DNA of 60,017 nucleotides, taken from an uncultured Oscillatoriales cyanobacterium (GTDB lineage Bacteria > Cyanobacteriota > Cyanobacteriia > Cyanobacteriales > Microcoleaceae). Where the stretch lies: NCBI GenBank assembly GCA_903893625.1, contig CAITND010000077.1:1-60017 (forward strand), given 5' to 3'. The translations under genes were made by a program, and so were the position numbers. Shown here piece by piece: positions 45,859-60,017 of the stretch. Each line of letters opens with the position of its first letter. The first letter of the stretch is position 1. A model generated the notes under the pieces. That model saw only the letters and a list, made by a program, of their open reading frames with translations. It did not search any database and was not told the DNA's origin.

Positions 45859-46872
45859 TTATAGCTTTATATCTTTGAAGCTACTGCGGGGATTAAACGT
45901 GCGACTGTCGCGAATTTTTTCATAATATTCTCGTTCATTAGGACTGAGTTCTTTAGGTGGCACCACCACAATTTTGACTAATTGATCCGTGCGACCTCCA
46001 GCTTTAGGTTTTGGCCATCCTTTCCCCCGCAACCGCAACGACTGTCCCGAACGAATACCGGGCGGAATATTCATCGTCACCATCCCATCCGGTGTAGGCA
46101 CTTCAATAGATGTCCCTAAAACCACTTCATCGGGCGTTACAGGCAGTTCACAGACCAGATTTTCCCCGTCAAATTGAAAGAAAGGATGGGGTTGAATTTC
46201 CACTTTTAGGTATAAATCCCCCCGTTGTTGGCTGTAGGGATCGACTTGACCTTGACCTCGCACTCGAATTCTGCTTCCGGGTTTGACTCCCGCCGGAATT
46301 GTTACTTCTCCGGCTGCATAGCGTTTTTGAGTCCCATGAAACGCTTCACTGAGGGTGAGGGTAATAATGGCTTCTGTATCGGCGATGGAAGGGGTATTGC
46401 GAGGATTAAATCCAGAGGAAAAATCATTATTGTAGGGGCTGCCACTGAATCCCGATGGCCCGCCAGTCTGGGGACGATAGGAATAACTGCGACTGCTACT
46501 ACTTCCGGGTCTAGCACCTGGGGCACCACGACCTAAAAGGGCGTTAATAAACTCATCAAAACTGTTAAATTGGCTAAAATCAAACCCGCTAGAGTCTGGA
46601 TTAGAACCTGCCCCACCGGGCCAACCTCCACTTCCGGCTTGGTTCCAATATTGACCAAATTGGTCGTATTTGCGGCGTTTATCGAGGTCGGATAACACCT
46701 CATAGGCTTCATTAACTTCTTTAAAACGCGCCTCAGCTTGTTTATTCCCCGGATTCATGTCCGGGTGAAATTTACGCGCTAGTTTCCGGTAGGCCTTTTT
46801 AATATCATCCGCCGTTGCGGTTTTGTCTAGTCCTAAAATGGTGTAGTAGTCTTTATAGTCAGTCGCAGGCAT
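45859..46872 (-). CDS. DnaJ-like co-chaperone without zinc fingers (CbpA type)
   Basis: A 337-residue type II J-protein. The N-terminal J domain has [24 protein letters not shown] and the HPD motif in [10 protein letters not shown], which stimulates Hsp70 ATPase. A Gly/Ser/Phe-rich linker (about 75-150) follows, then the two beta-barrel client-binding domains: [33 protein letters not shown] and [15 protein letters not shown]. The Cys-rich zinc domain of classical DnaJ is absent. The ATG was chosen because of GAGGAGAGGGGG directly upstream. An open frame continues 54 codons further but would cover that site. Divergent from ccsA. Confidence 0.92.
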
Positions 46873-47116
46873 TCGTCCCCCTCTCCTCAATGAGCGTGAT
46901 CCCTTGGCCAGTCGTTTTGTGACAGTATGCTTCTTTGTATAGGGTATCAAAGTTAAAAGCCGGATTGGGTTCGGACATTGCTGATCTGGCGATCGCAATG
47001 TCCGAACTAAGGGTGATCGAATCGAAAAAATCATCTCAGATCGTCAGGAATCGGTAGGATCATGAAATAGAGTTAAAAAAACTCGGTAATTAATACCGTT
47101 ATCAGGAGAACCGTTC

Positions 47117-48594: not shown

Positions 48595-48638
48595 GTTCAA
48601 AGTTCAAAGTTCAAAGGATTGAATTTTGAATTTTGAAT
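48595..48638. repeat. GTTCAAA / GAATTTT heptamer repeat
   Basis: Three GTTCAAA units, five spacer bases, then two GAATTTT units, which are partly complementary and can form a hairpin. Same STRR style as the other intergenic repeats. The rest of the 230-base gap before the metallopeptidase gene has no feature that I can identify. Confidence 0.75.
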
Positions 48639-48792
48639 ATTTTTTATGAACTTAAGGCTGGAAAGTTGATCTAAATATATTCAAAATTAATGTTACTAAT
48701 AATGAGAATTTCCCCGCTACGTCTATCCCTTTTATTAAGCCTTGAGGTGGATAGCTAACATTCTCTATCTAACTCAGGTTAATATGGAATAC

Positions 48793-49482
48793 TTATGCAA
48801 TTTTCTCTCCTGTAGCAACAACCCAAGTCCCATTACCAGTTACCTCAATTTGCCGTCCTAGAGAATCATAATCGAGATAGGCAAGAACTGGAGGGACATA
48901 TTCACGCCCAGCGAAAAGTTCTTGTCGCATAAACTCAAATTTATCCGGGTTGTAAAACTTGAGTTTTTCGGGATCGCGTACATAGGACTGATAAGATTCT
49001 GCAAAGTCTTCGTAAACGTTTGTACGAGCGTAATCTGAGACAAACCCTGAACCATCTTTGACATACTGTTCTAGACTTTTCTGATGAATGTCAGACCAGC
49101 GTTGAGCCACATCAGATCGATTTTCCATAATATTGGCATGGGCATTATGACCAACTTCATGGGTCAGAGTTTCCAAAAGTTGCTCTTTGCTTTGATTTGT
49201 ATTCAATATTTTGATCTCATGATTATCATTGCGGAAATAACCCAGAGCATTAGGACAGGAGGGATCAGTTATTGGCTCATACTGAATTTTAGGACACCCT
49301 TCCAAATGACTAGGTGGAAGAGTTTCACGGAGGTAGCTTGATACCTCCTCTGTAGAGGTGAAACCTGCCGCCTCAAAGTTACCCACTTCTGTATAACCCA
49401 CTAGCTCAGAGCAAGTTTGCCCGATTTCAGTCGGGATCTCGTTCCAGGTGTTGATACCTTCTCCCGAATATGAGTCAATCAT
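48793..49482 (-). CDS. zincin metallopeptidase with lethal-factor-like (ATLF) signature
   Basis: A 229-residue protein with THEVGHNAH (His108, Glu109, His112 as zinc ligands and catalytic Glu) and, 46 residues later, VYEDFAESYQSYVRDPEKLKFYNPDKFEF. There Glu158 or Glu162 can be the third ligand, as in anthrax lethal factor-type proteases. The N-terminal 85 residues (containing CSELVGYTEVGNFEAAGF) are not recognised. No signal peptide. The ATG is supported by GGGAGAAC nine bases upstream. An earlier in-frame start would run into the preceding gene. Last gene of the seven-gene operon, 13 bases after its neighbour. Likely the effector or processing enzyme of the system; the substrate is unknown. 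Confidence 0.8.
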   Translation of the reverse strand: MIDSYSGEGINTWNEIPTEIGQTCSELVGYTEVGNFEAAGFTSTEEVSSYLRETLPPSHLEGCPKIQYEPITDPSCPNALGYFRNDNHEIKILNTNQSKEQLLETLTHEVGHNAHANIMENRSDVAQRWSDIHQKSLEQYVKDGSGFVSDYARTNVYEDFAESYQSYVRDPEKLKFYNPDKFEFMRQELFAGREYVPPVLAYLDYDSLGRQIEVTGNGTWVVATGEKIA

Positions 49483-49495
49483 GATAGTTCTCCCA

Positions 49496-49828
49496 TTATT
49501 CCTGGATGAAACCAAATAGCCGAATTTTTCTTTCGCCAAAGGTGTATCGGCTAATAGCATCACCTAAAGCTTGTAAGAATCTTTGATCATCCGGTTTGAC
49601 TGTAAACTGCTCATCCACAAAAACTGTTCCATTTGCTTGTTGCACCTGACGACCAGTACGAAATGGAAGACCTTGGTGTTGGCAGTTGTTCACAAAGTCA
49701 GTCAAAGCGGATTTAAAGTCGACATCAGTTTCTGCTTCTAAAATCTCTAGTTGCAATTGATTATCTGGTGTCCAAGTAATTTGGGCTAAGGGCTGACGGT
49801 GATGATTAACAATTTTCAGCATCTTCAT
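49496..49828 (-). CDS. small soluble protein of unknown function, next to the metallopeptidase
   Basis: 110 residues: MKMLKIVNHHRQPLAQITWT, then DVDFKSALTDFVNNCQHQGL, then TVFVDEQFTVKPDDQRFLQA. It looks like a mixed alpha/beta fold with no membrane segment. A perfect Shine-Dalgarno site (AAGGAGGT, six bases before the ATG) indicates strong translation. It ends 13 bases before the protease start, so it could be an inhibitor, adaptor or substrate of that enzyme. This is suggested only by proximity. No family recognised. Confidence 0.6.
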   Translation of the reverse strand: MKMLKIVNHHRQPLAQITWTPDNQLQLEILEAETDVDFKSALTDFVNNCQHQGLPFRTGRQVQQANGTVFVDEQFTVKPDDQRFLQALGDAISRYTFGERKIRLFGFIQE

Positions 49829-49875
49829 AGATGTACCTCCTTGTAATGCGCTTTTTAGTTATACACATAAATTTG

Positions 49876-50280
49876 TTAATTATGAGCAATTTTTTCAATT
49901 TGCGAAAAAATTGTTTGGCGGAATTCGCCTTTAGCATACATTCCCCATCCGGCTGTAAGAAGCATAGGCCAAGCTATAAACCAAGCTACTCCTAAGCTTA
50001 CTAATTGGCTACGAATATCACCATTATCAACCACAACAAGGAGTGAATGGTCTGCTCTGCTTAATTGAATTTTATATGTAAACACCAACCCAGATAATTG
50101 GCGAAAAAAACCAGTTTTCTTGACTTCTACTACATAATGATCTTTGTCCTCCCAGTGCTTATGGTGTAAGGCAAAATCATGCTCTTCCAGCAGCCAATCA
50201 GATAATTTAGCAGCTATTGTCTCCAATTCTTCTAAATTAATATGTCTGCCAATCTCAATAGTGCGACTATCAATACCCAT
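49876..50280 (-). CDS. small protein with a hydrophobic segment near the C-terminus, unknown function
   Basis: 134 residues. The N-terminal 75 are polar and alpha/beta-like (MGIDSRTIEIGRHINLEELE, then LEEHDFALHHKHWEDKDHYV, then FFRQLSGLVFTYKIQL). One hydrophobic helix follows at about 95-115 (LVSLGVAWFIAWPMLLTAGW), then an amphipathic tail. It looks membrane-associated with its bulk in the cytoplasm. Lies 76 bases after the 201-residue gene and 47 before the 110-residue gene, in the same direction. No family recognised. Confidence 0.6.
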   Translation of the reverse strand: MGIDSRTIEIGRHINLEELETIAAKLSDWLLEEHDFALHHKHWEDKDHYVVEVKKTGFFRQLSGLVFTYKIQLSRADHSLLVVVDNGDIRSQLVSLGVAWFIAWPMLLTAGWGMYAKGEFRQTIFSQIEKIAHN

Positions 50281-50356
50281 AACGATTATTCTCCTTTTGA
50301 TGTGTAATTTTTTTCACCTCTAATTTAAGAGATGTGAGTAATTTGTTAATTTTCTG

Positions 50357-50962
50357 TCAACTTTTGGGAACTTGAATGGCTAGATTCTTTCTTAATGTCT
50401 GGCTAATTTGTCTCAAGTTATTAGTATAAACCTCAAGTTTTTGAGCATCTGCATTCACTAAAGCTTTTTCCATATCTTGAGTAATGTTTTCAAGTTTTAG
50501 CATCATCTCTACTAAATGCTTAGAGACATTTTGCAGCTTAGAAATACCGATATTATCTAGTTTTCTTCCTACAATTGGCAAAGTAGTTACTAGAGGTAAA
50601 ATCATATCTGAAACCCTATCCCATGCTTTGATATGACTGATGGTAAATGACTCAAGAAAATTAAAAGTTTTTGTTAATTCGATCGCAGTCTCCTGAGCTA
50701 AATCAATAGATTTCTGATTTTGTTCGATTAGTTGAGATATTTCTTTTAAACCTTTTAACTGAGCGTAGATAAAAAAGCCTAAACAAGAAATAGTTAACAA
50801 GATGCCAACACCAAATAACCAATCGTTAACAAAATGTCCAATCAACGTAACAAAAATACCAACAGACATACAGACTAAACTCAAGTTACCAATTCGATAA
50901 ATATCGGTTAATGAATTAGCCAGATTGTCAGAAAACTTTTTGAAATTAAAGTTTGATGTCAT
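50357..50962 (-). CDS. two-helix membrane protein with coiled-coil C-terminus, unknown function
   Basis: 201 residues. Two adjacent membrane helices (about 26-48 and 50-68, LVCMSVGIFVTLIGHFVNDW and LFGVGILLTISCLGFFIYAQ) are followed by a long helical, Leu/Gln-rich region that is probably coiled coil (about 70-200). The plan resembles methyl-accepting or stator-like anchors, but no family is recognised. Start and spacing (41 bases after the HerA-like gene) fit operon membership. It may tether the soluble ATPases to the inner membrane. Confidence 0.6.
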   Translation of the reverse strand: MTSNFNFKKFSDNLANSLTDIYRIGNLSLVCMSVGIFVTLIGHFVNDWLFGVGILLTISCLGFFIYAQLKGLKEISQLIEQNQKSIDLAQETAIELTKTFNFLESFTISHIKAWDRVSDMILPLVTTLPIVGRKLDNIGISKLQNVSKHLVEMMLKLENITQDMEKALVNADAQKLEVYTNNLRQISQTLRKNLAIQVPKS

Positions 50963-51003
50963 AATTATACCTTCCTTTTTGAATTAGAAATTTTGACAGA
51001 TTA

Positions 51004-53733
51004 CTATTTCAAAACCTGTACCCAAGCTGCCATATCGTCTTGTTCGCCACAAACTATTGCCTGTCCAGGTCGTAAATGATTAATAATTGCACTCTGTTCT
51101 GGGGTTAAAGTCATACAAGAACCCATTGCGTCTCGGTCATCAGCAGCTACTAAACGATGAACAATTTTAAGATTAGTATTCTTGATAGCATCGGGAACTA
51201 GACGCGCAGGAACTTGATCAGCAATTAATAATCCTTGACCGTAAGCTCTAATTTCTGACAAAATATTAGCAAACATCTCTGCTACTTTGCCTTGGGGATT
51301 AGCTTGTTCTGAAATACCTGACGAGACTTTCAAGAGGAGACGATGGGCTTCTTCAATCACGGCTAGGTGACGCAAGCCTAAATTTTCTCGTTCTTTTTGG
51401 GATAGTAAATCATTTTGAATTTGTCGGTATTCATAAAGGAATTGAAGCAGTATCGCCATCGCAAAAGCTTTATCCGCATCATCGCCCAAATAGGATAGGT
51501 TAATAATAACAGGGCGATCGAAGATTTCTGCCCAAGGAGTGGAAATTGGACGATCGAATAATTGTCCTTTCCAACCTCGACGTAAACTTTGGATTCGAGT
51601 GGTTAAGGCTGCGGTCAAATTCGCTGTAACCCTTTCTTCGTAACCTTTTCCTCTGATTACAGGTTGAATCTGGTCGAGGAGTTGAGTTAAAGTTGGTCTG
51701 GGTGTGCCAAAGGGGGGAAGTTTGTCATCTAGCCAGTTTTGTGGACGGGTATAAGCATAAAACAGGACATCTTCTAGTAACACAGGTAAGATTTCCTGCA
51801 TGGGGAAAGAAGCGTTGAGGATGGATTTAACGCGATCGATATGAGGTAAAACTTGGGGAGTGGAGTCTTCAGAAAGCCAAACGAGATCAAAAGGATTGAG
51901 AGTAAGTTGATTTTCTAGTTTTTGACCTCGCCAAGTTTGAACTCCGGGCATATAAATGGCTATTCTGTTAGGGCTATTTTTGGGTAATTGTGCATTTAAA
52001 CTCATTGCCCATTCTACATATTCGTCTTTGGCAGGTTCAATAACTAAAAAGGGTATTTGTTGCTGATTTAATTCCGTTAACATTTTCCGACAAGTGGTAG
52101 ATTTCCCAGAACCTGTAATGCCTGTTATTAAGCAATGTTTGGCTAAACTTGACAGAGAGATACTATATTTAAGAGATGTTGATTCACCTCCCTCTAGTAC
52201 GTTACCCAATACAATAGCTTTGCCTTCTACTATGGGGGGATTGAGGCTAAAAGTAGCTGTTGGCATAACTTTTACCCCTGGTACTTCATGGCGTGGTAAG
52301 TTGACCAGTAAGGCTAATTCTTGGGTGTTGAGAGGTGTGGTTAAACCATTAAATGCTTTTCCTAGTGGATGATCTAGTTTTTGCTGTTGGTTGTTAGGAT
52401 TAACCAGAGCTAAATCAGGGTGGTCAAAGTTTCTTAAAGAATTTTTAGTCTTATTCCAGACTCGTTTTAAGTCATGAATACGGATCGGTTCAAAAACACT
52501 GTTTTCTCCACTCAACAATGCTCGCAATTGGGTACTAGCTTGTTGGAGAATATCGGGTTTTTCAGCGAGTAAATAAGCTCCTACATTCCAACAACCTAAA
52601 GCACGAGCTTGTTCAAAACGTTCCAGATATTTTTTTATTTGTGCTTCTGCTGCCTGGGCATGAGCATTGATATATTCTTCACCAAAACCTTGTGCTGAAC
52701 TTAAGTTCAAACCCTTAGTTTCAGAATCACTAATCCCTGTTGTTTTAGTAATAGTTGTTCCTTGAGTTTGTTGATATTTATTGCTAAGTAATATATCTGA
52801 TGCCGTATCTATCATTAAGAAAGCCATGAAGTCCATTGCAGGAAATAGCAATCCCAAGCCTAAACCAGCCATCGTTGTAAGTACAGCCATGTTTAATGCG
52901 GAATTATCAACCTCCTCATAACTGGTACTGTTTGATTCAGAGATTGATTCACTACTATTATCTGTGTGGCCTTGCGTCAGAGAAATGCCTTTAGTAAAGG
53001 TTTCATTAAAGTTAATTTTACTGAAAGAATGGACACGCCCCATCAGTTCTCGTAATCCATAAATAATACCGTTAACTTGAGATTCACTCATCGGTTCAGC
53101 AATGACCATATACATAAAAGGTGATCCTCGCATCCCTCTTAAAAGACGATCTAAGCTTTGAGGGTAGCCCGGATTATCACCAGGTTTAAGAGATGGTATT
53201 CCAGTAATTGCTTGAGCGTAATGATATTTATTAAGTGGTTGAATAATATGGCTTTTTACTTCTGGGGAATCAGTATCAAGCTCCCGAAATTTTGTTCCTT
53301 GCCAATTTCCTTGTAAGAATTTGCCAATATTACTGATAAATTCTTCAGATGAACTATCCAAACTATCCTTACTACAAATTCCTAGATAAACCTGATTCTG
53401 ACTGCCATCACTAGAGATAATAAAAACTAGATTATATTTTTCAGGATTGTGACAAGCAGAAAGAGCAGTTTGTAAGGCTGTAAAAGGTTGAGAAAGTGAG
53501 TCCACCAGAGAATTTCCCACCTGTTCTACTTTTAGAAAATAGGCATCTCCCATCAAGATTCCTTTAGGTGGCATTGGTTGAATGTATTTAGCATCTGCTA
53601 ACGGAATTTCAAGATATTGTCTCCCTAAACTAAAGAGAAGGGATTGAGACATTACATTAGCAGCAGCGATTTTTAAATCTAATTGATTTAATTGTTGTGA
53701 ATCTTGAGAAGGAACAATGTCAGATGATCTCAT
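51004..53733 (-). CDS. HerA/VirB4-type ATPase with large N-terminal domain
   Basis: A 909-residue P-loop ATPase of the HerA-FtsK superfamily. Walker A is GITGSGKST (538-546) in HCLITGITGSGKSTTCRKML. Next come FLVIEPAKDEYVEWA and Walker B HLAVIEEAHRLL with Glu794-Glu795. The Gln/Arg end QGLLIADQVPARLVPDAIKNTN, then RLVAADDRD, matches the arginine finger/sensor part. The first 500 residues are unusual. They hold a Ser-rich segment (about 250-275) and a hydrophobic stretch (about 280-308, MAVLTTMAGLGLGLLFPAMD) that could touch the membrane. HerA-like ATPases pump DNA or protein and partner with nucleases or secretion machines. Here no nuclease is adjacent. Fourth gene from the 3' side of the tandem Hsp70 operon. 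Confidence 0.8.
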   Translation of the reverse strand: MRSSDIVPSQDSQQLNQLDLKIAAANVMSQSLLFSLGRQYLEIPLADAKYIQPMPPKGILMGDAYFLKVEQVGNSLVDSLSQPFTALQTALSACHNPEKYNLVFIISSDGSQNQVYLGICSKDSLDSSSEEFISNIGKFLQGNWQGTKFRELDTDSPEVKSHIIQPLNKYHYAQAITGIPSLKPGDNPGYPQSLDRLLRGMRGSPFMYMVIAEPMSESQVNGIIYGLRELMGRVHSFSKINFNETFTKGISLTQGHTDNSSESISESNSTSYEEVDNSALNMAVLTTMAGLGLGLLFPAMDFMAFLMIDTASDILLSNKYQQTQGTTITKTTGISDSETKGLNLSSAQGFGEEYINAHAQAAEAQIKKYLERFEQARALGCWNVGAYLLAEKPDILQQASTQLRALLSGENSVFEPIRIHDLKRVWNKTKNSLRNFDHPDLALVNPNNQQQKLDHPLGKAFNGLTTPLNTQELALLVNLPRHEVPGVKVMPTATFSLNPPIVEGKAIVLGNVLEGGESTSLKYSISLSSLAKHCLITGITGSGKSTTCRKMLTELNQQQIPFLVIEPAKDEYVEWAMSLNAQLPKNSPNRIAIYMPGVQTWRGQKLENQLTLNPFDLVWLSEDSTPQVLPHIDRVKSILNASFPMQEILPVLLEDVLFYAYTRPQNWLDDKLPPFGTPRPTLTQLLDQIQPVIRGKGYEERVTANLTAALTTRIQSLRRGWKGQLFDRPISTPWAEIFDRPVIINLSYLGDDADKAFAMAILLQFLYEYRQIQNDLLSQKERENLGLRHLAVIEEAHRLLLKVSSGISEQANPQGKVAEMFANILSEIRAYGQGLLIADQVPARLVPDAIKNTNLKIVHRLVAADDRDAMGSCMTLTPEQSAIINHLRPGQAIVCGEQDDMAAWVQVLK

Positions 53734-53769
53734 GTCAATTACCTCTTATTGGTATGGTTGAGATTAAAT

Positions 53770-56700
53770 TTAAGCAATTAATATTTTTACGGAATCAGCT
53801 TGTTGTCTCACTTCCTTACTCAACCAATCTTTTACTGAGTTAGTAATTTCATCACTAAATGTTGGTGAATTTTTCGCAAGAGATTCTTCTTCCTCTTTCT
53901 TAAGACCTTCCTCAACTTTGGCTTTCAAAGTTACTTTTAGGTCGCTAGTCATTTTTGAGATTTTGTTATCAGAAACCCATCCACGAAAAAATTTAGGGAT
54001 ATCTGAATCTTTGATGATATCTTCAGCAATAGATTGACCCACTATAGCAACAACAATACCAATTATTAGCCCTATTCCTGTTGTTGCAAGAGCTAACGTT
54101 ATCAATCCTATAACAATACCAATAATCCAGTTAACTATTGCTGTCATTGCGGTTGGATCGATAATAATCACATTTCCTGACTTTAGATTCTCAGCATTAG
54201 GATTATAGTTTAGTGAAGGTGGAACCAGTTGATTTAACTTTAGTCCATATTTACTACAAATAGAATTAGTTTTTTCATTTAGCTTTGGTTCGAGGTCTTG
54301 TTTTAGCCAATTTTGAATTGCTGTTGTAACAGCTTCTTTACCTTCCCTTCCTTTCAACCAAGCTTCCGATCTTGAGACAATGTTTGACTCAAGACCATTT
54401 AAGGTATAAATTTCATTACGATTACGCCAATCAAACAGAACAGGTTGAATGATTTTATTAGATAAACCATTGATTAAATTTTCTGTTAATTTACTACGCA
54501 AAGAATCAATATTGCCACTTACAATTTTGGGTAAATCATTCTGCAAAAATTGCTCTACTTCATTCGTAAAGTGAATTGTATTAATATTCCGTTTTCCCCA
54601 ACGTGCAAGACCCATAGCAATACAAAGACTGGGTTCAGTATCTCTTGTACATTTGCAATTAGAAAAAATCTCGTGGACGATTTCAGGAATAAAGTCCATT
54701 TTGGAAGCACCACCAGTTAGGATAATTGTATTTACCTTAATTCCTTTATTTTCTAATTTTTGTTTGGTTTCCATCAAGAAATAACGAAAATTGTCTTGCC
54801 AACTTTTTTGAAAATCAACACCTTTTAGAGAAAGTAAAATATGCTTAGAATTTGGCAGACAATTATTCAAAGGTATGGTAACAATTGTCTCAATAGTTTC
54901 CTTATAAACAATTGGCTCAAAAACAACCACTTTTTGATATTTTTCTGATCCTACCTGAACGGAAGAATCAGCATCAGTATAGTTTAGAGAATTACAAAAG
55001 TATTCTTCTTTAGCTCTACGACACTTAAATTCACAGCGATGTTTATATAAGGAAGCTGTCTGAAAAACATTTTCAATTTTTGCTTGATCTTCGTTTTGAC
55101 TAAGACTGTAATCGAGAATAGCTTTATCAATCAAACCTGCGCCTAAGTCAATGCCAAAATCATCATCTTCCTCATGTATTCCTGCTTTAATAAGAGTACA
55201 ATCTGTAGTAGATGAGCCAACATCAATAACTAATACATTACTTTTGATTTCTTCACCTGTTAACAAGTCACTCCCTCTTGATTGCATCAGCGCGGCAAAA
55301 GATTCTTTTGTTACACTCACTTCAGGTAGATTAGAAGATTTTAAAAGTTTTTGGTATCCAGCTATATCTGCATTAGTCCATTCTGACGGACAGCCGATAA
55401 AAAAATGATTTTGGTCGTCTTTTTTAAGTTGATCAGTTTGTAAGAGATGTTGATAAATTGCATTAACATAATCTATCATAACTTTCTGATAATTGGATTC
55501 AGAAGTCGGTCTTTTTTTGAAAGCAATTTGAAAATCAGTAACCTTGGCATTTAAAGCTTGTTCACCAAATAAAATCCCCTGTTCAGGATGATAGGCTATC
55601 ATTGTCGGTTGACAATCTTTTTTATGAAGTAGCAGTTTTTTGGGTGGCTCTTCTTTCTTAGAGCTTACTATCTTGGTTAATGCAGTTTCTCCATGTCCCA
55701 AATCAAAACCGATAATTTCAACATTGTTATTACTCATCGTGATGTCCTCTACTTTTTTGATGTCTTGATTGTTTTGTGATTTTGAATTTTGAGGTATATT
55801 GTATTTTTCAATTAATGAGTATTGCTTTCCCCAACGTACAAGACCCATCGCAATACAAAGACCGGGTTCAGGATCACTTATACACTTACAATTAGGAAAA
55901 ACCTGGTGGACAATTTCAGGGATAAAGTTCATTTTGGAAGCACCACCAGTCAGAAGGATTGAACCAAGCTTAATCTCTTGCTTTTCTAGTTGCTGTTTAT
56001 GTTGTTTCAAGAGATTCCGAAACGAATCAATCCAACTCTGATTTCCCAATTCGGGTAAGGGTTGATTGAGAATCTTCTCCATGATAAGTTTATAAACAAT
56101 TGGTTCAAAAATGCCAACATCACGGATTTTTAGAGAGCCAACGCTTACCCCACAGTCCTCATCTGGGTACTGGTTAAGATTACAAAAATATTCTTCTTTA
56201 GCCTCACGACATATATATTCACAGCGTTCTCTCCAAAAAGGTGCTGTTTCAAAAGCCTTCTCAATCGCCTCCCGATCTTCGTTTTGACTCAGACTGTAAT
56301 CGAGAATAGCTTTATCAATAAGAGATGCGCCCCAATCAGTGCTAATACTTTGGGAATCTCTATTGATAAAATTGATAAAATTGTCTATATCAAAACCCAA
56401 TATTAATTTGAGTTCTGGAGGTATTGAGGAACTACTCTGTTGAGAAGTCTGCTTTTTAACAACAGTTAAATCTATAGTGGATGAACCCACATCAATAACT
56501 AACACATTACCTTTGACATCTTCATATGTGAACAGTTCACTCGCTCTTGCTTGCATCAGAACGGCAAAAGATTCCTTAATTACTTTCACTCTAGGTAGAT
56601 TAGAAGACTTTAAAATTTTTTGGTATTCAGCTACCTCTGCATCAGTCCATTCTGACGGACAGGCTATAAAAAAATAATTCTGATCGTCTTTTTTAAGTTG

Positions 56701-57006
56701 ATTAGTTTCTAAGAGATGCTCATAAATTGCATTGACATAATCTCTCATAACTTTCTGATAATTGGGCTCAGAAGTCGGACGTTTTTTGAAAGGGATTTGA
56801 AAATCAGTAGCTTTGATATTTAAAGCTTGTTTACCAAATAAAACTCCCTGTTCAGGATGATAGGCTATCATTGTTGGTTGACACTCTACTCTATGAAGTA
56901 GTAGTTTCTTTGGTGGCTCCTTTACGTTGTCTCCTACAATTTTCGCTAAAGCGGTTTCTCCGTGACCTAAATCAAAACCGATAATTTCAACATTGTTATT
57001 ACTCAT
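53770..57006 (-). CDS. fused tandem Hsp70/actin-like ATPase with membrane helices
   Basis: A 1078-residue protein made of two similar actin-fold ATPase domains. The first (about 1-400) has phosphate-1 IIGFDLGHGETALAKIV, phosphate-2 VLVIDVGSSTIDLTVV (about 165-180) and adenosine loop ILLTGGASKMNFIPEIV (about 350). The second repeats this from Met424: IIGFDLGHGETALTKIV, VIDVGSSTTDCTLI (about 590), LTGGASKMDFIPEIV (about 765). It is followed by a helical region and paired membrane helices (about 950-993, IIGIVIGLITLALATTGIGL...). The restart sequence MSNNNVEIIGFDLGHGETAL is preceded in-frame by VEDIT, the translation of GAGGACATCACG, a relic ribosome-binding site. So two tandem genes appear fused, or the second half is also made alone. 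It lacks the classical Hsp70 substrate domain. Confidence 0.82.
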   Translation of the reverse strand: MSNNNVEIIGFDLGHGETALAKIVGDNVKEPPKKLLLHRVECQPTMIAYHPEQGVLFGKQALNIKATDFQIPFKKRPTSEPNYQKVMRDYVNAIYEHLLETNQLKKDDQNYFFIACPSEWTDAEVAEYQKILKSSNLPRVKVIKESFAVLMQARASELFTYEDVKGNVLVIDVGSSTIDLTVVKKQTSQQSSSSIPPELKLILGFDIDNFINFINRDSQSISTDWGASLIDKAILDYSLSQNEDREAIEKAFETAPFWRERCEYICREAKEEYFCNLNQYPDEDCGVSVGSLKIRDVGIFEPIVYKLIMEKILNQPLPELGNQSWIDSFRNLLKQHKQQLEKQEIKLGSILLTGGASKMNFIPEIVHQVFPNCKCISDPEPGLCIAMGLVRWGKQYSLIEKYNIPQNSKSQNNQDIKKVEDITMSNNNVEIIGFDLGHGETALTKIVSSKKEEPPKKLLLHKKDCQPTMIAYHPEQGILFGEQALNAKVTDFQIAFKKRPTSESNYQKVMIDYVNAIYQHLLQTDQLKKDDQNHFFIGCPSEWTNADIAGYQKLLKSSNLPEVSVTKESFAALMQSRGSDLLTGEEIKSNVLVIDVGSSTTDCTLIKAGIHEEDDDFGIDLGAGLIDKAILDYSLSQNEDQAKIENVFQTASLYKHRCEFKCRRAKEEYFCNSLNYTDADSSVQVGSEKYQKVVVFEPIVYKETIETIVTIPLNNCLPNSKHILLSLKGVDFQKSWQDNFRYFLMETKQKLENKGIKVNTIILTGGASKMDFIPEIVHEIFSNCKCTRDTEPSLCIAMGLARWGKRNINTIHFTNEVEQFLQNDLPKIVSGNIDSLRSKLTENLINGLSNKIIQPVLFDWRNRNEIYTLNGLESNIVSRSEAWLKGREGKEAVTTAIQNWLKQDLEPKLNEKTNSICSKYGLKLNQLVPPSLNYNPNAENLKSGNVIIIDPTAMTAIVNWIIGIVIGLITLALATTGIGLIIGIVVAIVGQSIAEDIIKDSDIPKFFRGWVSDNKISKMTSDLKVTLKAKVEEGLKKEEEESLAKNSPTFSDEITNSVKDWLSKEVRQQADSVKILIA

Positions 57007-57057
57007 TACTCACCTTCTCCCTTTACTAGAAAGATTTAAGATATTAAGTGAATTACT

Positions 57058-57981
57058 TTACTCTTGTGTAGTAGCCGGTTCAATTACTCGCCCCTGTAAA
57101 ATCACCTCATCGCCTTTAACAAATGCAGGTTTCATGGTGACATACTCTTGTAAATCAGGCTCTAAACTTGGCTCAAATTCAAACATTTCCCAATCCCGAC
57201 TAGATGGTTCACCCTTTGGTTGATAAACCCGTGCTTCCATACCATAATGTCTCAAGACAGAAGGAATACGTTTTAACTGTTTGCTCACTAAAGTAGGGAT
57301 TTGATTTTGATCATCTAATTCCTCTCCCATTAAATCTTGTAAAACTTCTAAAACATCGGTCAATTTATCTAAACTTGGTTTATCTGGTTGTTTTTTTCGA
57401 TCTTCTAAACAACGGGCAACCGCCAGATCAATCTCTTTAAAACCCTGAGACAAATTAGATAATATGAGATCAAGATTTATCCGTAATCGTGGTACTTCAT
57501 TCTCTACGGTTGTCTTTGACTCAACCTTTTCTGTTTCTTCATTTTTTGGCATTAAGTTAGAAACAACCCCTACTCCAGCGCCCACAGCAATACCTACAGC
57601 CGTACCAACAATAGGAACTCCTGTTAAAGTTCCTGCAATACCTCCACTCAATGCGCCGATGCCGATATGAATCATCTCTTGATTGCTGTTATCTTTATGA
57701 TGGGGTTTGTGATGATGGCTTTGGAAATTTTCCTCTGCATGAACTTGAGGCAATTTAATTGCTGTCAGAATATTAAAAGACTTACTCAAAGATTCTAACC
57801 GTTCCCATGCTAAGGTTCTTTGAGAATCAGTTAAACCAAGAATATACTCACTGTTATGATTGGCAATTATTCTGATTTCATTCTGAATAATTTGTACAAT
57901 TTCTTCAGATGTGGTTGTTCTTTTGAATTCTTGATAGAGCTTGGTTTCGATTTGTGTATAGTAGTTCTCTAATGCTAACAT
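57058..57981 (-). CDS. GrpE-like protein with a glycine-rich membrane segment
   Basis: 307 residues from an ATG with AAAGGAGG nearby. The N-terminus (1-80) is helical, and a His-rich linker (about 81-100) follows. A Gly-zipper membrane stretch (about 105-143, IGIGALSGGIAGTLTGVPIV...) precedes a helix and a C-terminal domain. The final part, LRHYGMEARVYQPKGEPSSR..., then DLQEYVTMKPAFVKGDEVIL, follows the layout of the GrpE head domain (nucleotide exchange on Hsp70): Gly-x-Pro-hydrophobic, ...V...kGY.l.d.vLrpA.V. The match is by pattern only. First gene of the operon, 51 bases ahead of the Hsp70-like gene, so a GrpE-Hsp70 pair is plausible. Confidence 0.6.
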   Translation of the reverse strand: MLALENYYTQIETKLYQEFKRTTTSEEIVQIIQNEIRIIANHNSEYILGLTDSQRTLAWERLESLSKSFNILTAIKLPQVHAEENFQSHHHKPHHKDNSNQEMIHIGIGALSGGIAGTLTGVPIVGTAVGIAVGAGVGVVSNLMPKNEETEKVESKTTVENEVPRLRINLDLILSNLSQGFKEIDLAVARCLEDRKKQPDKPSLDKLTDVLEVLQDLMGEELDDQNQIPTLVSKQLKRIPSVLRHYGMEARVYQPKGEPSSRDWEMFEFEPSLEPDLQEYVTMKPAFVKGDEVILQGRVIEPATTQE

Positions 57982-58251
57982 TTTATCCTCCTTTGGAATA
58001 AGCCAATTCATGTAAAATTGGCAAAACTATTAGTTGAGATTTTCCGCCCGAAATATAACCCTATTGATCTGGATTAGCTCAAGTATGCACGCTGCCAAAT
58101 AGAATTCGGGAAAGTCGTTACAAAACCTTACATTTAGGAGGAGAATAAGTTGAGTTGGCTGCTAATGCTTCAAATTTCCATCAGATAACAATTTTGTCGG
58201 CTTTTTGAGCGATAATTTGCACATCTTCTTGTTAAGACATACAGTTTACCT

Positions 58252-59124
58252 CTATTGATTCAATTTTCTAAATAACGATTTTTGCCAGATAAAAATTCCA
58301 ATTGCACCCAAACAAAACAACCCCATCACCCCGGCTAACGGATTTTTATCAATTCCGGTGATAGCCTCAGAAACGGTTCCAGAATAATCAATCAATTGCC
58401 CTATATTAATCATATAATAACCCCAAACTAACCCCCCATGCAACCCCATCGGCAAACCCAACCAACCGGACGGACTTAACTGTAAACGATGAGAAGAAGC
58501 CGGAAACCAGGCTAGTTTAGAGACAACTAAGATTAATCCTAATAAAACTAACCCCGGAAATTGTAACGCCGTTCTTTGAATTTCGGCTAAGGGTTTAATA
58601 AAATGTAAACTCGCAAAGATTAAACTATTAATTCCTAATGCAATTTTCGGGGAATAATCTCGGTTTAATTCATCGAGTAACCATCCCCTAAAAAATAATT
58701 CTTCCGCAAACCCTACCCCAAAAGCCACTAAAAGTCCTTCTAAACTAATTCTTAAAAAATTAGGGCTTGGAGATTGCCATTTCACCCAACCGAATATAGA
58801 TTCAATTAAGAATAATCCCATTAAACTGATTAATCCTAATCCTAATCCTTTGAGATAATTTTGATAATTTTTAGGAGTAAAAACTAAACCGTAGCGAGTT
58901 AGGGGGTGAGATTCCTGATCAATTATTTTTCCCCAGACGTGAATTAAAATCAGAAACTCGACATACAGGAAAATCAATGTAATAATACTAACAAAATTGC
59001 GATCGCTCACCCATAAATAAAAAGGTGCTGCTAAGGGGAGCCAAAGCAACACCAAAACCAGGAGAAAAATCACAATTCTCAGAAAAGCAGGATAGTTTCT
59101 TAACAATTCAAAATCGTATTTCAA
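58252..59124 (-). CDS. CPBP-family intramembrane metalloprotease (CAAX/Abi type)
   Basis: A 290-residue protein with about eight membrane helices. The family signature is complete: EELFFRGWLL (EExxxR) and, after a helix, NSLIFASLHF (FxxxH). A His-containing third helix has GLPMGLHGGLVWGYYM. Members cleave membrane proteins or prenylated peptides, and some protect against bacteriocins. No operon partner. It starts 26 bases after the ClpS stop on the same strand, so it may be co-transcribed with clpS. Confidence 0.88.
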   Translation of the reverse strand: MKYDFELLRNYPAFLRIVIFLLVLVLLWLPLAAPFYLWVSDRNFVSIITLIFLYVEFLILIHVWGKIIDQESHPLTRYGLVFTPKNYQNYLKGLGLGLISLMGLFLIESIFGWVKWQSPSPNFLRISLEGLLVAFGVGFAEELFFRGWLLDELNRDYSPKIALGINSLIFASLHFIKPLAEIQRTALQFPGLVLLGLILVVSKLAWFPASSHRLQLSPSGWLGLPMGLHGGLVWGYYMINIGQLIDYSGTVSEAITGIDKNPLAGVMGLFCLGAIGIFIWQKSLFRKLNQ

Positions 59125-59607: not shown

Positions 59608-60017
59608 ATGACAGAGGAAAAACTGCGACAACTAATCGAACAAGCAGCTAGAGAAAATTGGACAGAACTCGATCTCTCTGGTAATAAGTTAACGGCTTTG
59701 TCCCCGGAAATCGGTCAACTCACGAATCTGCAAACCCTCAACCTGGGTGACAATCAACTCAGCAGTCTGCCTGGGGAAATCGCTCAACTCACGAATCTGC
59801 AAACCCTCGACCTGCGTGACAATCAACTCAGCAGTCTGCCTGGGGAAATCGGTCAACTCACCCATCTCCAATCCCTCTACCTGTTTAACAATCAACTCAG
59901 CAGTCTGCCTGGGGAAATCGTTCAACTCACCAATCTGCAAACCCTCCACCTGTTTAACAATCAACTCAGCAGTCTGCCTGGGGAAATCGGTCAACTCACG
60001 AATCTGCAAACCCTCGA
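59608..60017 (+). CDS. leucine-rich-repeat protein (Roco-like), N-terminal part
   Basis: 136 codons, running off the right edge. A helical start (MTEEKLRQLIEQAARENWTE) is followed by a cap and 23-residue leucine-rich repeats: LDLSGNKLTALSPEIGQLTN, LQTLNLGDNQLSSLPGEIAQ and so on, five or so units. Cyanobacterial proteins with this start and repeat type normally continue into a Roc-COR GTPase or further LRRs. That part is not visible. The repeats are nearly identical at DNA level (69-base period), so their number is expected to vary between strains. The antisense frame is open only because of the repeat. Confidence 0.85.
   Translation, partial: MTEEKLRQLIEQAARENWTELDLSGNKLTALSPEIGQLTNLQTLNLGDNQLSSLPGEIAQLTNLQTLDLRDNQLSSLPGEIGQLTHLQSLYLFNNQLSSLPGEIVQLTNLQTLHLFNNQLSSLPGEIGQLTNLQTL

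Follow-up and report, generated by a model that had tools for sequence, protein, structure and literature searches.

A candidate toxin-immunity operon with a VirB4/HerA-type ATPase and a zincin in a variable island of an Oscillatoriales cyanobacterium

Contig CAITND010000077.1 (assembly GCA_903893625.1, from an uncultured Oscillatoriales cyanobacterium) was analysed over a stretch of 60,017 nt, hereafter the window. It contains a seven-gene operon encoding, in the direction of transcription, a protein designated gene A, a tandem Hsp70/actin-fold ATPase, a VirB4/HerA-type ATPase (the motor), two predicted membrane proteins (mem1 and mem2), a small protein and a zincin metalloprotease (Table 1). 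Our preferred interpretation, to which we give slightly better than an even chance, sees this operon as a mobile conflict system of the toxin-immunity kind, with the motor, the zincin as effector and the small protein as its antidote. As some motor relatives lie directly next to toxin and immunity genes, the operon belongs in the field of toxin delivery or defence, in support of an earlier examination of the DNA without database searches (the sequence-only reading), which considered the operon as possibly a defence or toxin-delivery system.

The operon, its island and its conserved core

The seven open reading frames (ORFs) are all on the minus strand (48793–57981), with intergenic gaps of 51, 36, 41, 76, 47 and 13 bases and purine-rich, Shine-Dalgarno-like stretches upstream of operon gene starts, so that the layout described in the sequence-only reading (seven minus-strand genes, gaps of 13–76 bases and Shine-Dalgarno sites) is borne out throughout. 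The operon occupies a variable island of ca. 9.6 kb that is absent at this place from the three same-genus relatives examined (genomes G001, G002 and G008), the identity with their DNA stopping at positions 48636–48674 and resuming at 58254. The G+C content is 0.366 in the island vs. 0.390 in the remainder of the window, and the two 300-base regions compared at the island edges did not contain any common repeat of 10–20 bases. The flanks of the island are not adjacent in the same-genus relatives, being 2.6 Mb apart in G001; given this separation, there may have been a rearrangement, or an assembly join, at the island site. Homologs of the operon genes also adjoin each other in other cyanobacterial genomes, where gene-neighbourhood conservation was checked as the sequence-only reading had proposed. 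The occurrence of the same gene set in other genomes and the sharp edges of the island indicate that the operon is more than a chance association.

A zincin gene lies downstream in all seven cyanobacterial loci that have a full-length motor gene, those from the window, Sphaerospermopsis (L021/L036), Microcystis (L023), genome G082 (L037) and Okeania (L022/L041), plus two plasmid-borne copies, in Planktothrix (plasmid p1, L056) and Anabaena cylindrica (plasmid pANACY.04, L057); loci L038 and L040, containing the motor N-region alone in what look like truncated genes, were excluded from this count. The small protein is present in six of these seven loci, and in L037 a block of AAA, transposase and resolvase genes separates its gene from that of the zincin. 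Among 386 sampled cyanobacterial genomes, with full scoring of two motor candidates in each, strong matches to the motor, the small protein and the zincin came from the identical three genomes (G000, G082 and G394); matches to the small protein in eight further genomes (E 1e-4 to 6e-4) and to the zincin in fifteen further genomes (E 1e-10 or worse) were left out as short or partial. The conserved core of the operon is therefore made up of the motor ATPase, the small protein and the zincin. The idea of one machine of seven proteins, put forward in the sequence-only reading, is supported only in part, since the chaperone-like pair is separable from this core and the membrane protein genes are variable.

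The zincin contains the motifs HEVGHNAH and EDFAESY. Its ORF could open at a GTG codon at position 49563, and comparison with homologs favours a start at 49482, as in the sequence-only reading. It matched generic zinc-metallopeptidase models, in both cases under their cut-offs (Peptidase_Mx1, 1.7e-5; TIGR04549, 1.5e-6). The HExxH motif, with a downstream EDFA(E/D)(S/T)Y, is conserved in six of the seven cyanobacterial zincin homologs, all six of them accompanied by the small protein. The seventh, from Okeania (L022:13276–13917), is degenerate, with YEVGL in place of HEVGH, and sits beside a full-length motor; no trace of the small gene was found in the 22.7 kb of this locus. The small protein is conserved lengthwise, with a conserved R..FG tail at its C-terminal end (alignment A3).

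The sequence-only reading had called the last gene a lethal-factor-like protease, of which the zincin assignment stands, from the HExxH and acidic motifs, and the lethal-factor label is not supported: no such Pfam family was among the matches at E<=1, and of the two solved chains hit by a profile search at E<=10, neither is a lethal factor. The better solved-chain match (E=0.34) was to a 'substrate import-associated zinc metallohydrolase lipoprotein'.

A likeness noticed post hoc links the zincin N-terminus, MIDSYSGEG, to those of some cargo genes from IMG/VR loci L098–L101. The motif occurred in five of the six zincins tested, leaving out that of G082, whose start adjoins the transposon block, and in 10 of the 961 different ORFs, each 100 amino acids or longer, from the fetched loci, eight of these ten being zincins or the cargo from which the motif was taken. 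As it was picked after viewing both sets, we retain it only as a hint.

The motor family and its toxin neighbours

The motor has intact Walker A (GITGSGKS, residue 538) and Walker B (VIEEAH, residue 792) motifs and a DUF87 core (2e-10, 41.6 bits with a cut-off of 23.2), which supports its designation as a HerA-like ATPase in the sequence-only reading and places it among VirB4/HerA-type enzymes. Its ATPase domain is matched by the PADLOC models HerA and mad8, and its best NCBIfam matches were NF033849 'serine-rich protein' (89 bits) and CedD (65 bits), neither coming close to its cut-off. The solved structures closest to it by sequence are HerA-type motors, several of them from antiphage complexes. 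Among the structural matches listed for a low-confidence model of the motor, VirB4 from type IV secretion systems (T4SS) covers the longest stretch, of up to 550 residues; the TrwK/VirB4 alignments span model residues ca. 57–898, with 490–550 residues aligned at a root-mean-square deviation of 12–13, much of the N-terminal half being modelled with low pLDDT (predicted local distance difference test). A Pfam scan did not identify further T4SS parts among the seven operon proteins, and VirB8 was found in none of the three carrier genomes, with no control genome being positive either.

Relatives of the motor were sought beyond cyanobacteria. A tblastn search of plasmids with the window motor returned 43 records, and the set of non-cyanobacterial loci comprises 27, of which 21 were fetched and six are distinct loci from IMG/VR (L079/L093 and L097–L101); 17 motors make up the family alignment A1. 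Using the N-terminal region alone, hhalign comparisons of the cyanobacterial group gave E=1.6e-36 with that from E. coli, Firmicutes and Treponema, 4.6e-25 with Acinetobacter and Photobacterium, 2.7e-9 with the Rhodococcus/Streptomyces type and 3e-6, across about 107 columns only, with the S. clavuligerus group. Sequences without the Walker pattern used were dropped, namely three out of ten in the second group and one out of five among those of S. clavuligerus type. Judged by these comparisons, the window motor is of the same family as the toxin-adjacent motors and homologous along its length to those of E. coli, Treponema, Lactococcus and Exiguobacterium.

A recognised toxin domain is encoded by the very next gene after the motor in 7 of the 27 non-cyanobacterial loci. 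Four of the seven, from E. coli, Lactococcus, Exiguobacterium and Treponema, are HNH nucleases according to their records, that of Treponema being a colicin-type DNase by Pfam (2.1e-34); the others are an ADP-ribosyltransferase in S. clavuligerus; a WHH/colicin-DNase in L079; and a protein with a RelA_SpoT domain, under cut-off, in S. antimycoticus, with an HD gene two genes on. In these relatives, the conserved motor has at a fixed place beside it a variety of effector domains, as expected of a polymorphic toxin-immunity system. The nuclease gene is followed by an SMI1/KNR4 gene in E. coli, Exiguobacterium and Treponema, and by a hypothetical gene in Lactococcus. In all seven toxin loci the next gene overlaps the motor gene or begins at most 6 bases away, a tight spacing also found in Nocardia, Ruminococcus and Hymenobacter (ten chosen loci in all); gaps are larger in, among others, Priestia, Kocuria, Rhodococcus and Streptomyces NBC_00105.

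Three loci not scored as toxin-adjacent deserve mention. The next protein in Nocardia (725 amino acids) has a GHSLG motif and no Pfam match, and precedes an ankyrin gene; L098 contains HNH and SMI1/KNR4-like genes, both under cut-off, as the fifth and sixth ORFs past the motor; and in Streptomyces NBC_00708 a partial motor match lies within a gene annotated as 'zeta toxin'. Scans of viral contigs with the motors of S. clavuligerus and E. coli did not identify any relative. The E. coli version was found by megablast in 1 of 5426 E. coli genomes, and swapping of toxins within the species is thus not demonstrable. Genes past the motor in Acinetobacter (L058:13018–13936) and Photobacterium (L060:12727–13368) have similar glycine/serine-rich starts.

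A second class of cyanobacterial HerA proteins (L050–L055, 615–1079 amino acids) has the ATPase core alone in common with the motor; their N-terminal regions compared with E=0.29 by hhalign, a weak test because only one of the five second-class sequences passed the Walker filter. Two of these loci (L051 and L052) are near TPR, kinase-like and pilin-G/H genes, and L051 is also near an FHA gene.

Partner and accessory genes

Gene A contains a glycine-rich hydrophobic segment at residues ca. 115–143 of its 307, and the pattern of its C-terminal part recalls, by eye and without proof, the beta-domain of GrpE. The sequence-only reading labelled it GrpE-like, a label that failed with both family models and profile-profile comparison: the GrpE family (PF01025) did not match gene A at E<=1, nor anything on its contig at E<=10, and hhalign against true GrpE sequences from 12 genomes gave E=0.058 and a probability of 0.9%.

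The tandem protein matched MreB_Mbl (40.6 bits, cut-off 27) and HSP70 (PF00012, 29.4 bits, cut-off 20.6) in Pfam. Between its halves, protein identity is 61% and DNA identity across the first 552 bases 85%, and both have actin-fold nucleotide motifs, which substantiates its description as a tandem Hsp70-like, double actin-fold ATPase. The best PF00012 stretch corresponds to profile positions 272–369 of 599, and the C-terminus is hydrophobic and glycine-rich (residues ca. 946–999). Microcystis (L023) has two separate genes where the window has the tandem gene. Gene A together with a single Hsp70-like gene (639–657 amino acids) was also found, in the absence of a motor gene, in seven cyanobacterial loci (L043–L049, of which L049 ends 1 kb past the Hsp70-like gene); the chaperone pair is therefore an independent module.

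Of the seven cyanobacterial loci that contain a full-length motor, five have an Hsp70-like gene upstream of it. In IMG/VR loci L099, L100 and L101 there is an Hsp70 gene two or three genes downstream of the motor, identified with 2.7e-124 in L099 and by BLAST only in the other two, so the association of Hsp70-like proteins with this ATPase family that the sequence-only reading had pointed out was found again outside the window. These three loci also encode a protein of ca. 525 amino acids and a TPR protein, that of L101 with a weak J-domain match (0.02). Other partners occupy the region upstream of the motor elsewhere: a pair of dynamins in E. coli, Lactococcus and Treponema, with one or two small genes in between, a single dynamin in L079, a GTPase in Anabaena and an SPFH gene in Kocuria.

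A profile of an N-terminal region of ca. 130 residues, built from seven partner proteins of the ca. 525-amino acid kind, recovered those seven and three more among 1056 ORFs from 172 loci, the additions being the second dynamins of the Lactococcus (2.4e-14), E. coli (4.5e-8) and Treponema (1.8e-4) operons. The domain thereby links the dynamin and Hsp70 versions of the motor operons. The profile missed the L079 dynamin and found nothing in the cyanobacterial operons. This domain, which often contains NPY/NPF ... W ... F-x-G, did not have a convincing match in Pfam or among solved structures; it could be an adaptor coupling interchangeable membrane or chaperone nucleoside triphosphatases (NTPases) to the motor.

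Hydropathy predicts two stretches of membrane-helix length in mem1 and one in mem2, in line with the two membrane proteins announced in the sequence-only reading. Counterparts of mem1 occur in the Sphaerospermopsis and Microcystis loci, and of mem2 in that from Microcystis. Past the zincin there is a ThiF-type (E1-like) gene, immediately after it, in L037:12314–13363 (2e-43) and L036:12187–13239 (2e-40), with an N-terminal extension that by eye resembles a peptide-recognition domain, and a DUF692 gene plus a gene for ca. 130 amino acids on the Planktothrix (L056:17038–18257) and Anabaena (L057:17974–19179) plasmids. In the window, a DnaJ-type gene (45859–47034, minus strand) lies 1.8 kb past the end of the operon, outside the island and in DNA common to G008 and G002, and a short ORF (59689–60009, minus strand) is built of near-perfect repeats of ca. 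23 residues.

Table 1. Operon genes, island and examples of the new domain; positions are those of the window unless preceded by a locus
Feature	Position	Strand	Characteristics
gene A (307 aa)	57058..57981	-	helical N-terminal region (by eye), glycine-rich hydrophobic segment, C-terminal part
tandem Hsp70/actin-fold ATPase (1078 aa)	53770..57006	-	two nucleotide-binding halves and a hydrophobic/glycine-rich C-terminal segment
VirB4/HerA-type ATPase, 'motor' (909 aa)	51004..53733	-	DUF87, Walker motifs, N-terminal region of ~500 residues
mem1	50357..50962	-	predicted two-helix membrane protein, accessory
mem2	49876..50280	-	one predicted membrane helix, accessory
small protein (110 aa)	49496..49828	-	putative antidote (immunity protein) of the zincin, or its substrate
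zincin	48793..49482	-	HExxH; candidate toxin/effector protease
variable island (~9.6 kb)	48675..58253	not applicable	DNA identity with three same-genus relatives breaks off at both edges
~130-aa domain, examples	L101:9893-10282, L062:4504-4893, L061:3756-4145, L064:4649-5038, six others		found by profile

Interpretation and comparison with known systems

As a toxin-immunity system, the operon could work as follows. The motor probably sits at the membrane, with the zincin as the putative effector and cargo. The small protein would bind the zincin and hold it harmless in the producer as an immunity protein, a role as pro-effector substrate being less likely. An ATP-dependent membrane partner, formed by gene A together with the Hsp70-like tandem protein, would keep the effector or the motor competent for loading, a place that dynamin pairs or GTPases may fill in the motor relatives. 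Motor and membrane partner would then load and drive the zincin, probably outward and into competitors; we consider delivery to neighbouring cells somewhat likelier than a release within the producer itself when phages attack.

In favour of this interpretation are the set and order of the genes, the homology of the motor to toxin-adjacent motors, the co-occurrence of motor, small protein and zincin, the concurrent loss of the small gene and the HExxH motif in Okeania, the likeness of the motor model to VirB4, the Hsp70 genes near the motor in L099–L101 and the domain of ca. 130 residues common to dynamin and Hsp70 versions. Several observations weigh against it. Of the 27 non-cyanobacterial loci, 20 lack a recognised toxin domain in the next gene, the Nocardia, L098 and NBC_00708 loci included, many of the 20 being judged from record annotation or unscanned (e.g. 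L097 and L099–L101). The order of genes is also different, with the small gene before the protease in cyanobacteria and the toxin before the immunity gene in the motor relatives. The small protein did not show a convincing family match, and its structural model (pLDDT 65) had no Foldseek match at E<=0.001, while the joint loss of the HExxH motif and of the small gene is a single case, that of Okeania. The N-terminal motif of the zincin was found in 0 of 15 further cargo candidates. As for the motor, DndH-C equals VirB4 as the best fold match to its ATPase core, and VirB10/TrbI (PF03743) was not found in the three carrier genomes, with 2 of 14 control genomes positive; given the missing VirB10, a canonical T4SS channel is not available to the motor.

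Weak matches to PADLOC candidate-defence models, of gene A (LeoB, 2.5e-5; PDC-M09A, 0.0073) and of the Hsp70-like protein (PDC-M61B, 1.2e-5), also count against it and would suit a role in intracellular defence, in which the motor and its Hsp70-like partner would sense infection or membrane stress and free the zincin from the small protein, to break down proteins vital to the infected cell (abortive infection). HerA-Sir2 and HerA-DUF4297 probably cooperate with their partner enzymes in such a manner, and the closest solved relatives of the motor, its HerA and mad8 matches and the island behaviour of the operon agree with this alternative, as do the HEPN and Csm6 genes found several genes past the motor in Acinetobacter and Photobacterium. 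Hsp70 and GrpE are also described in GTPase-centred conflict systems (PMC7159879). Nevertheless, Pfam and PADLOC did not reveal a partner of the Sir2, DUF4297 or NurA type among the seven proteins, and the motor model fits full-length VirB4 across more residues than the other matches listed. SMI1/KNR4 immunity proteins and colicin-type DNases, as found beside the motor relatives, typically go with exported toxins, and altogether we consider intracellular defence to be a credible yet unlikely explanation.

Two other explanations fit less well. If the operon matured and exported a product akin to a ribosomally synthesized and post-translationally modified peptide, the small protein would be its precursor or carrier, the zincin the maturation protease and the motor the exporter, with ThiF or DUF692 proteins modifying the product. 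The position of the ThiF genes straight after the zincin (L037 and L036), the DUF692 and ca. 130-amino acid genes of the two plasmids and the conserved tail of the small protein would suit this scheme, which is nonetheless improbable: none of the seven window proteins matched ThiF or DUF692 in Pfam (the ORFs past the Okeania zincin lying outside the scan), the plasmid DUF692 genes are 0.5 and 1.4 kb off, inside a shared gene order, and the small protein is conserved lengthwise, unlike leader-core peptides. A housekeeping role in membrane quality control, with the Hsp70-like protein as an unfoldase that degrades damaged membrane proteins together with the metalloprotease, and the ATPase as translocase, is suggested by the chaperone, ATPase and protease make-up and by the seven cyanobacterial loci having the gene A and Hsp70-like pair without the ATPase. 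It is still less probable, considering the patchy distribution of the full-length motor (3 of 386 genomes, and plasmid-borne in two species), the lack of the island in three same-genus relatives and the toxin genes abutting some motor relatives.

Going beyond the toxin-immunity interpretation, we tentatively suggest, as an idea rather more doubtful than probable, that these loci encode a new delivery machine, in which a VirB4-like motor that has become independent of the T4SS channel would be joined by the adaptor of ca. 130 residues to a dynamin pair or an Hsp70 and would move variable toxins across the membrane or out through it, the cyanobacterial branch delivering a zincin. If true, membrane-remodelling GTPases or an Hsp70-type ATPase would replace the usual secretion channel in a toxin-deploying apparatus, and a role would be found for plasmid-borne orphan genes of the DUF87, dynamin-pair and Hsp70-like kinds in hosts ranging from cyanobacteria to lactococci. 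Whether a VirB4/HerA motor can move toxins without the T4SS core would then become a testable question, the versions on the dairy Lactococcus plasmid (pB26B type) and on the Anabaena cylindrica PCC 7122 plasmid having culturable hosts.

The components of the operon are of known kinds. HerA-Sir2 and HerA-DUF4297, among the closest solved relatives, likewise join a HerA-type ATPase to an effector, whereas the operon lacks such effectors; it has chaperone-like partners, a candidate antidote and a longer motor, the model of which fits full-length VirB4. The GAP1-N2 systems are conflict operons that contain an Hsp70 and its GrpE partner; according to PMC7159879, their Hsp70 is sometimes devoid of the peptide-binding domain and they are nearly absent from cyanobacteria. 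They centre on a DO-GTPase and GAP1, matched by none of the seven operon proteins in Pfam, and 'HerA' appears in that text once only, in a reference title. Varied toxin domains beside SMI1/KNR4, ankyrin or HD genes, at a fixed position in some motor relatives, recall the toxin systems of PMC3482391 (2012), whose accessible text names type I to VII systems, PVC, TcdB/TcaC and PrsW as delivery routes and does not contain 'dynamin' or 'Hsp70'. The LeoABC dynamins of enterotoxigenic E. coli, a dynamin set linked to vesicle-borne toxin release according to the portion of PMC4159319 seen, offer a further likeness, one Treponema dynamin matching LeoA (3.8e-9); unlike our loci, no HerA/VirB4 motor is mentioned in that portion, and the window operon lacks a dynamin. 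None of the open-access papers listed by our searches, preprints aside, and judged by titles, term counts and the start of abstracts, describes such a motor joined both to toxin and immunity genes and to partners of the dynamin or Hsp70 type, and this combination, with the new domain of ca. 130 residues, appears to be undescribed. Compared with VirB4/HerA pumping ATPases such as T4SS VirB4 and HerA, the motor is accompanied by no other T4SS part among the seven proteins, nor was VirB10 found in the three carrier genomes, and some of its relatives have toxin- and immunity-like genes beside them.

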